Positions 15,345 to 17,947 of a DNA stretch of 64,000 nt are shown here, one piece after another (position 1 is the stretch's first letter; each line of letters begins with the position of its first letter). Where the stretch lies: positions 136,880 through 200,879 of the forward strand of contig NZ_HE998568.1 in the NCBI RefSeq assembly GCF_000327285.1, read 5' to 3'. The notes below the pieces were generated by a model. That model was not told where the DNA came from. It saw only the letters and a list, made by a program, of their open reading frames with translations, and did not search any database. The translations under genes were made by a program, and so were the position numbers. Source of the stretch: Holdemania massiliensis AP2 (GTDB taxonomy: Bacteria; Bacillota_I; Bacilli_A; Erysipelotrichales; Erysipelotrichaceae).

Positions 15345-16466
15345 ATGGAAAAAATCATAGTTGCTGCAGATTCATTTAAAGGCTGTTTATCCAGCAGTCA
15401 GATCGGGGAACTGATTCAAATGGTTACTCAGGAAATACTCCCTTCTGTCCAAGTCACGGTGTTGCCGATCAGTGACGGCGGCGAAGGGTTAGTAGAAGCG
15501 GTTGTCAAAAGCGGCGGCTTTGCACGGCAGGAAGGTCAATTCTACGACCCGATGAACAGACCGCTGACGGCCGCTTGGGCGCGCCGGGAGGATGAAGCGG
15601 TCATTGAATTGGCACAATGCAGCGGATTAGGTTTATGTGATCCGCATGATCCTTCTTTAATGTCAACCTATGGCACCGGACTGCAGCTGAAAGCGGCACT
15701 GAAGACTGGATGCAAAACTCTATATTTGGGTTTGGGCGGCAGCGGTACGCATGATGCCGGCTGCGGCATTGCGGCTGCCTTGGGCATTCGTTTTTTCCAT
15801 CAGGGAAAAGCCTTTCTGCCCACCGGTGCCACGCTCAATCAGATTGACGCGATAGATGATTCTGAAAGTTTGTTCAATCAATACCCGGCACAGTTAGTTT
15901 GCCTGTGCGATGTCACGAATCCGCTTTTTGGATCCCTTGGAGCAGCACGGGTCTTTGCACGGCAGAAAGGGGCTGATCAACGCCTGATCGAACAGCTGGA
16001 TCAGGCGACAGAAACACTGACACGCAAGGTGGAAAAATGGAAATCCTGTGTCCTGGCTGATCAGCCAGGCTTGGGAGCAGCCGGAGCCTGCGGCCTGATG
16101 CTGAGCGGATTGTTTCATTGTGAGATCCGCAGCGGACTGGAGCAGTGCTTGCAATGGATGCAGCTGGATGAACAGTTAAAGCAGGCTGACCTGATCCTCA
16201 CCGGTGAAGGCCGTCTGGATTCGCAAAGTCTGCAGGGGAAAGTCCCGTTAGGCATCCTGCGGCATGGCCAGCAAGCTCACGTTCCGGTACTGGCTGTATG
16301 CGGACAGCTGGCATTCCCCAAAGCCGACTTGATTAAGGCTGGATTCTGCGATGTGCTGGTCTTGCAGCAACCGCAGATGAGTCTGCAGGAAAGCCTCGAC
16401 CAGGCTTCTGACAGGCTTCAGAGCGAATGGAAATCCTGGCTGAATCAACATTATCAATCCCTGTAA
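15345..16466 (+). CDS. Glycerate kinase (GarK/GlxK family)
   Basis: The 373-residue enzyme has the family landmarks: ADSFKGCLSS (8-17), SDGGEG near 48, GLGGSGTHDAGCG near 130, and TGEGRLDSQSLQGK near 288. It phosphorylates D-glycerate to 2- or 3-phosphoglycerate in the cytoplasm, feeding lower glycolysis. TATAAT at 15293-15298 and GGAGG before the start support expression. A terminator at 16465-16491 separates it from the next gene, which carries a degenerate copy of the same fold. Confidence 0.93.
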   Translation: MEKIIVAADSFKGCLSSSQIGELIQMVTQEILPSVQVTVLPISDGGEGLVEAVVKSGGFARQEGQFYDPMNRPLTAAWARREDEAVIELAQCSGLGLCDPHDPSLMSTYGTGLQLKAALKTGCKTLYLGLGGSGTHDAGCGIAAALGIRFFHQGKAFLPTGATLNQIDAIDDSESLFNQYPAQLVCLCDVTNPLFGSLGAARVFARQKGADQRLIEQLDQATETLTRKVEKWKSCVLADQPGLGAAGACGLMLSGLFHCEIRSGLEQCLQWMQLDEQLKQADLILTGEGRLDSQSLQGKVPLGILRHGQQAHVPVLAVCGQLAFPKADLIKAGFCDVLVLQQPQMSLQESLDQASDRLQSEWKSWLNQHYQSL

Positions 16467-16491
16467 GCTGGATAAATAATCCGGCTTTTTT
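16465..16491 (+). terminator. Intrinsic terminator of the glycerate kinase gene
   Basis: AAGCTGGAT (16465-16473) pairs with ATCCGGCTT (16479-16487), with one G-T pair, then a T run. The next gene has possible -10 boxes (TATGAT/TAAAAT) at 16530-16540. Confidence 0.75.
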
Positions 16492-16567
16492 GTAAGCGCT
16501 GTCAAAGAACGTTTTCTGCACGTCCGGATTATGATAAAATGAAAGAAACAGCCAGGAGAGGTTAACC

Positions 16568-17947
16568 ATGAAAATCCGTCATTTACCTGCGAGTCAGTCC
16601 CCCAACATTCAGTCCTTTTTGGATTTCAGCCGCCGTATGCTTAACGCTGAGCGGCAAACCTGTGTCAAAGCCTGCAGCTGGGATGTTTCAGAAGTCGTTC
16701 CCAACAAACCTCTGCCGCAATGGGAAATTTTTGCAGCGGAAGAAAGTGAAGGTCAGCTGGTTGGACTTTTAGCCTTGGATCCGCAGCGGTGGCAGATTGA
16801 TCTGCTGGTGGTTTCGCAGCAGCATCAAGGCGAGGGTTTATCCAGCGAACTGCTGCATCAGGCGCGCCGTTATGCTAAAAAACATCATCACTTTGAGCTG
16901 CAGGTCATCGTTTTATTGGCTTCCTTGCCGTTCTTTCTGAAAGAAGGCTTTACCTTGATGGCCAATGATCGTCACCCGGTTCAGCTGCAGGGACGGTTTT
17001 TCATGCGGCAGACACTGCGCTCGCGGCTGGTTCTGGCGGCCGAGCCGTTTGACAATGGCTGGGATGCACGGGCTTTCACGGAAATCCTGCAGGCCACTAT
17101 TCCGGGTTCTCAATGTCAGTCGCTTTCCTGCAATTTAAGCGATCATCGGCATGGCTACGTTGACGCCTTAATCGGTCAGTCCGTCTGTCGGCGAGTTTTC
17201 TTTCCCTCCCCAGCTTCCCATCGGATCAGTTATGCAGTCCGGGGCAACAATGCCATTCTTGAGCTTTCTGCCATAGCTGATGAATCAGATTCAACATTAT
17301 ACGGCATGATGATTCTGCATGCTATGACGCAGGGCTGCCGGCGCTTTTATCTTGTTTTAAGTGATGAAGGTCCCCAAGACGGCGGCAGAGGAATGCTTGA
17401 GGCTTTAGGCATGAAATTGATCTGTAATCAACAAGGTGAAATCATCCAGGCTGAGGATGGCGAGATGAGAAAAACGCTGCGCGGCTTAACCTTTATTGCC
17501 CTTTGCGATCCTCTGGATCTTTATCGAAATACACTTCCCCGCTCACCGCTGCTTCACTGGCTTGGACAAATCGCGGCGCCGGAACCGGGGGCCTGTGCTG
17601 GTCATGGCCTCGGCTATACTGTTCAGGCCATCCTCAAAGGGAAATGTCAGGATGGCATTGCGGCGTTGATGTCTACGATTGGTTTTGGCGAACGGTTAAA
17701 GCATGCGGATGCGCTGCTTTGCTTCCGGCAAACTCCGCTGACACCGACTTCACCCAGCGCCTTACCCCACGCCGCGGCGATGGCCCATCATGAAGACATG
17801 CTGACAATGTTGATCACGCCGGCTAAGATTTCATCAGTTCAGGCTGAAATTCTCGGATTTGATATCGTCATACGACTGCCTGAGGGTCCGCTGGACGATC
17901 ATGATGTCCTTGAAGCTCTAAAACAGGCTTATTCTTTTATCTTATAA
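16568..17947 (+). CDS. GNAT acetyltransferase fused to a degenerate glycerate-kinase-like domain
   Basis: The 459-residue protein has an N-terminal GNAT domain (about 1-150; acetyl-CoA loop QHQGEGLSSELL near 85). From about residue 152 it follows the neighbouring glycerate kinase colinearly. RLVLAAEPFDNGW stands against KIIVAADSFKGCL, STLYGMMILHAMTQGCRRFYL against STYGTGLQLKAALKTGCKTLYL, and EPGACAGHGLG against QPGLGAAGACG. The catalytic motifs are lost: SDGGEG is SDHRHG, GGSGTHDAG is SDEGPQDGG, and TGEGRLDSQ is replaced by CFRQTPLTP. The kinase half is therefore probably inactive and may serve as a ligand sensor or scaffold. AGGAGAGG precedes the start. Function unknown; the domain call is by eye. 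Confidence 0.75.
   Translation: MKIRHLPASQSPNIQSFLDFSRRMLNAERQTCVKACSWDVSEVVPNKPLPQWEIFAAEESEGQLVGLLALDPQRWQIDLLVVSQQHQGEGLSSELLHQARRYAKKHHHFELQVIVLLASLPFFLKEGFTLMANDRHPVQLQGRFFMRQTLRSRLVLAAEPFDNGWDARAFTEILQATIPGSQCQSLSCNLSDHRHGYVDALIGQSVCRRVFFPSPASHRISYAVRGNNAILELSAIADESDSTLYGMMILHAMTQGCRRFYLVLSDEGPQDGGRGMLEALGMKLICNQQGEIIQAEDGEMRKTLRGLTFIALCDPLDLYRNTLPRSPLLHWLGQIAAPEPGACAGHGLGYTVQAILKGKCQDGIAALMSTIGFGERLKHADALLCFRQTPLTPTSPSALPHAAAMAHHEDMLTMLITPAKISSVQAEILGFDIVIRLPEGPLDDHDVLEALKQAYSFIL

Follow-up and report, generated by a model that had tools for sequence, protein, structure and literature searches.

A GNAT domain joined to a predicted pseudo-glycerate kinase is encoded beside the active enzyme in Holdemania

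Results

The window (the whole 64,000-nucleotide stretch of Holdemania massiliensis AP2 DNA that was analyzed) encodes, with near certainty, a protein built of an N-terminal GNAT domain and a dead glycerate kinase. The first-pass annotation had proposed such a GNAT-pseudokinase fusion beside the active enzyme; both domains were recovered by profile (PF13673 and PF02595) and by predicted fold, and the adjacency was seen in all four species. The features of the locus, in window positions, are listed below.

15345-16466, + strand: active-type glycerate kinase (PF02595 / TIGR00045), 373 aa, motifs intact; Pfam, NCBIfam, and PDB 3cwc match
16465-16487, + strand: terminator-like hairpin and T run between both genes; pattern scan, suggestive only, as the scan count of such hairpins was no higher than in shuffled sequence
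16568-17947, + strand: GNAT-pseudo-glycerate-kinase fusion, 459 aa; single uninterrupted ORF in four of four genomes of the genus
16568-17020, + strand: GNAT domain, residues 1-151; PF13673, PF00583, and model
16826-16843, + strand: putative acetyl-CoA pyrophosphate loop QGEGLS, residues 87-92; alignments
17021-17944, + strand: predicted pseudo-glycerate-kinase domain, residues 152-459; PF02595 in two stretches, and model
17360-17374, + strand: SDEGP, residues 265-269, at the place of the GGSxT that is invariant in active kinases; alignment with 30 active kinases
17507-17518, + strand: residues 314-317, the deletion site of the kinase block NPLxGxxGAxxxxxxQKG; alignment
17723-17746, + strand: FRQTPLTP, residues 386-393, at the place of GEGxxDxQ of active kinases; alignment

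Layout of the gene pair

The upstream glycerate kinase is apparently intact, judging from a profile search that matched PF02595 with E 7.7e-104 and exceeded the TIGR00045 cut-off, and from a match to PDB 3cwc with E 1e-53. This gene lies directly upstream of the fusion in all four genomes of the genus, separated by gaps of 101 (window), 94, 71, and 25 bp. The gene order upstream of the pair is common to the four genomes, and the closest named relative, Holdemania filiformis DSM 12042, has the same gene order as the window. In the most distant Holdemania species, where the gap is 25 bp, the pair persists despite different downstream neighbors. The adjacency may nonetheless reflect only an origin by tandem duplication.

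A ribosome-binding-like AGGAG stands upstream of the fusion ORF. Co-transcription of the pair is not assured, because the gap is promoter-sized in three species and the window copy carries the terminator-like hairpin. That hairpin and a ATTATGATA(A/G)AAT-like stretch before the fusion gene, common to the three close species, suggest that the fusion gene may have its own promoter at this stretch.

In H. filiformis DSM 12042, the active kinase gene (L004:4777-5906) is split into two frames beside a short A/G run; the assembly is old, and the split is probably a sequencing error. Outside the window, the genome encodes a 2-hydroxy-3-oxopropionate reductase-like protein (L059:1126-1977, - strand), a relative of tartronate semialdehyde reductase, which scored 234 bits, below the curated cut-off of 340.75. 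With this relative in the genome, the active kinase could possibly be supplied with glycerate made from glyoxylate.

The C-terminal half has a predicted glycerate kinase fold

The fusion matched PF02595 with E 4e-15 and 56.1 bits (Pfam cut-off 23.3) over residues 156-299 and a second stretch, and scored 46.4 bits against TIGR00045, under the NCBIfam curated cut-off of 168.45. The C-terminal half is colinear with active kinases over approximately 300 residues at roughly 20-24% identity, as had been claimed from alignment by eye with the neighboring enzyme. Against a profile of 30 active kinases, the C-terminal halves of the four orthologues scored 63.7-92.3 bits, and the top score among 1,000 shuffled copies was 7.5 bits; these controls rule out chance similarity.

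Two AlphaFold models were compared with known structures. The first, built from an alignment of the four orthologues alone with no active kinase (mean pLDDT 63.6), is independent of any homology assumption; it matched glycerate kinase 3cwc with a Foldseek E of 3e-15 and a Z of 20.5 over 273 residues, and the best row that was not a glycerate kinase had a Z of 10.8. The second, for which active kinases were added to the alignment and which thus depends on the homology assumption, had a pLDDT of 87.9 and a pTM of 0.83; its residues 150-459 superposed on 3cwc with a Z of 25.7 over 299 residues at 3.6 Å, in agreement with Foldseek. The models predict a glycerate kinase fold for the C-terminal half, and not the unrelated fold that would have spoken against the first-pass annotation.

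Loss of kinase catalytic residues

We defined 56 columns as conserved, each at least 90% conserved among the 30 active kinases. The four orthologues keep 18 of these, and the remaining 38 are changed or deleted. The C-terminal half lacks the catalytic motif set of DSxKG, GGSxTxD, DVxNPL..QKG, and GEGxxDxQ..GK, and the motif loss is common to all four orthologues: GGSxT has become S-x-x-x-P, with S265 and P269 fixed in each, other residues stand in place of GEGxxDxQ and the GK after it, and the NPLxGxxGAxxxxxxQKG block is deleted. With these changes, glycerate-kinase-type phosphotransfer is very unlikely and the kinase half is almost certainly dead. The earlier statement that every catalytic motif is replaced was slightly too broad; it holds for GGSxT, NPLxG..QKG, and GEGxxDxQ..GK, but DxGxG (D271, G273, G275), D192, D314, and G341/A344/G349 are retained. 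On sequence and model grounds, the C-terminal half qualifies as a pseudoenzyme, with its fold kept under selection, its catalytic residues lost, and its activity presumably lost with them.

The former active site was no better conserved than the rest of the domain. Between the window copy and the distant orthologue, 19 of 47 columns conserved in active kinases were conserved versus 91 of 257 others (p = 0.51). The absence of extra constraint on these columns disfavors retention of the ancestral ligand pocket and makes sensing of glycerate or ATP in that pocket less likely. A different set of 28 residues, including R305-T308, W331, C360, and G372, is invariant in the four orthologues and rare in active kinases.

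The GNAT half

The fusion matched PF13673 over residues 55-132 with E 5e-9 and 36.7 bits (Pfam cut-off 23.6), and PF00583 with E 2.8e-7; Pfam GNAT models were matched by the GNAT halves of all four orthologues. The N-terminal part of the model superposed on the GNAT structure 3lod with a Z of 15.4 over 130 residues at 2.3 Å, and Foldseek agreed. Compared with the consensus R/QxxGxG/A, the window copy has QGEGLS and the distant orthologue HDAGIS; the central Gly is kept and the last Gly/Ala is Ser. Positions G90 and S92 are invariant in the four orthologues, and the loop is strongly conserved in three. Because the GNAT half retains its predicted fold and the central part of the acetyl-CoA loop, it likely binds acetyl-CoA and is probably still an acetyltransferase.

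Two arguments for a defective GNAT half were considered and dropped. A better alignment revealed the central Gly in the distant orthologue, where the loop had seemed broken, and the FF found in place of FY, taken as a mark of a dead GNAT, is also present in a free-standing GNAT.

Selection, distribution, and origin

Both halves of the fusion are under purifying selection. In comparisons of the three close species, synonymous divergence greatly exceeds nonsynonymous divergence in both halves, with omega of about 0.05-0.16 compared to 0.07-0.11 for the active kinase; these values are rough, as several synonymous distances are near saturation. The fusion of the fourth species has 38% identity and an intact frame. 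A decaying pseudogene could have been suspected from the low identity to active kinases and the lost motifs, but the chance of this is negligible: the substitution test ruled it out, with omega about 0.1 in close pairs, and the ORF is intact in four species, even the most distant.

The fusion is present in all four Holdemania genomes and was found in none of the 78 other genera in a search of 315 genomes of the order, nor outside Holdemania among 392 genomes of the phylum. In the latter set, the two copies of the fusion were the only low scorers against PF02595 (35-56 bits), and the others listed scored at least 197 bits. A scan of genome contigs from close relatives, which constituted the search beyond the phylum, returned H. 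filiformis as the sole match to the fusion. Plasmids yielded no fusion and one weak kinase-only match, and E. coli no fusion match. The literature searched described neither a pseudoenzyme of the PF02595 family nor a fusion of a GNAT domain to a glycerate kinase. In the data searched, the fusion is thus restricted to one genus and would represent a lineage-specific new combination of two known families. In a phylogenetic tree, the dead copies group with Holdemania kinases; given the weak support (65/23) and long branches, an origin from the neighboring kinase is tentative at best.

Discussion

We tentatively interpret the fusion as an acetyltransferase that uses its dead kinase as a docking module for the active kinase or a pathway metabolite, thereby tuning glycerate use. 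On this reading, a second copy of a glycerate kinase gene would have become attached downstream of a GNAT-coding sequence ahead of the diversification of Holdemania. The alignments show that the catalytic residues of the kinase half have been lost; this half is predicted to have kept its fold, while the GNAT half, with its loop core, would act as an acetyltransferase. The dead half would then dock the GNAT domain to its target, either the neighboring active glycerate kinase or a pathway metabolite, and glycerate use would be adjusted through acetylation or by binding alone. Compared with a sensor of glycerate or ATP, docking is the simpler reading: the fold persists, catalysis has gone, and the active kinase sits alongside in every species. 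It is favored by purifying selection in both halves with omega similar to that of the active kinase, by a pairing that persists in all four species, including the one with different downstream neighbors and a gap of only 25 bp, by the retained core of the acetyl-CoA loop, the identification of both domains, and the loss of kinase motifs in every orthologue, and by the precedent of GlxK, an E. coli glycerate kinase from the PF02595 family that binds allantoinase and activates it when glyoxylate is present (PMC10163214). It is weakened by the lack of special conservation in the old active-site columns, by co-transcription that is not assured, by an adjacency that may stem only from tandem duplication, and by the orthologue with HDAGIS instead of QGEGLS. 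A genus-specific regulator in which the dead copy associates with the living kinase and governs it by acetylation is quite unlikely.

Alternatively, and somewhat improbably, the GNAT domain may acetylate an unrelated small molecule or protein, with the dead kinase as no more than a structural or oligomerization scaffold, a remnant of the fusion that has no regulatory link to glycerate. GNATs of the PF13673 type, to which the fusion belongs by its match, are common and diverse, and conservation at the former active site is no higher than elsewhere in the domain. Intact glycerate kinases of related Bacilli are also fused to uracil-DNA-glycosylase (UDG), HAD, and MazG domains, so odd glycerate kinase fusions need not mean pathway regulation. 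A mere scaffold fits less well with a dead half that has its own fixed residues and experiences purifying selection comparable to that of the GNAT half, and with the pairing kept in four of four species.

It is unlikely that neither domain catalyzes and that the protein is a stoichiometric inhibitor or activator binding the active glycerate kinase or its partners. The dead kinase half, the somewhat divergent GNAT loop (in either version), and the partner effects known for GlxK would suit such a regulator, but every GNAT half matches Pfam GNAT models and the loop is strongly conserved in three species. The 28 residues that are invariant in the orthologues and rare in active kinases could instead mark a C-terminal half that has acquired a new site for binding or converting another substrate, yielding a new bifunctional enzyme; we regard this as decidedly improbable, for no new motif is recognizable and four sequences, three of them close, cannot separate functional from structural constraint. 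The first-pass suggestion of an allosteric sensor of glycerate or ATP that uses the old kinase pocket to direct acetylation of the active kinase fared worse and is very improbable: the fold and D192, D271, G273, G275, and D314 of the old site are kept, but the site has lost the QKG block, has other residues at GGSxT and GEGxxDxQ, and lacks special conservation.

Should the dead kinase direct acetylation of the active one, the fusion would illustrate compactly how an enzyme duplicate can come to serve as the targeting part of a modifying enzyme, and it would offer a simple system for studying the origin of pseudoenzymes. If it does not, the protein would still clearly exemplify a metabolic enzyme fold retained for a noncatalytic role.

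Comparison with known systems

The fusion shares with the PF02595 / TIGR00045 kinases (GlxK, GarK; 3cwc, 1to6) the predicted fold over residues 150-459, a colinear sequence, and part of the DxGxG segment, but differs by its lost or deleted catalytic motifs, its attached GNAT domain, and a TIGR00045 score below the cut-off. With PF13673 (Acetyltransf_10) GNATs it shares the predicted fold, the core of the acetyl-CoA loop, and an SLPFF..GF segment also found in a free-standing relative (L047), and it differs from them by the 300-residue C-terminal pseudo-kinase. The allosteric complex of E. coli GlxK and AllB (PMC10163214) offers a likeness in which a glycerate kinase is the binding partner that regulates another enzyme, a role that is a proposal for the fusion; GlxK itself is active and unfused, and its partner is allantoinase.

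Other fusions occur among Bacilli. Six glycerate kinases (L053 at 768-2426, L054, L055, L056, L057, and L058) carry a C-terminal domain of the uracil-DNA-glycosylase superfamily, recognized by Pfam in L053, L054, L055, and L057 and by similarity in L056 and L058; the L057 fusion looks partly degenerate. Another is joined to a HAD phosphatase-like domain (L052:578-2302; PF13419, E 7.1e-34), and one to a MazG nucleotide pyrophosphohydrolase domain (L013:484-1974, - strand; PF03819, E 4.1e-10). These proteins resemble the Holdemania fusion in joining a PF02595 protein to another enzyme domain, but their kinase half is N-terminal and scores 196-415 bits to PF02595 over nearly its whole length, whereas only Holdemania has a GNAT domain, an N-terminal partner, and a low-scoring kinase half.
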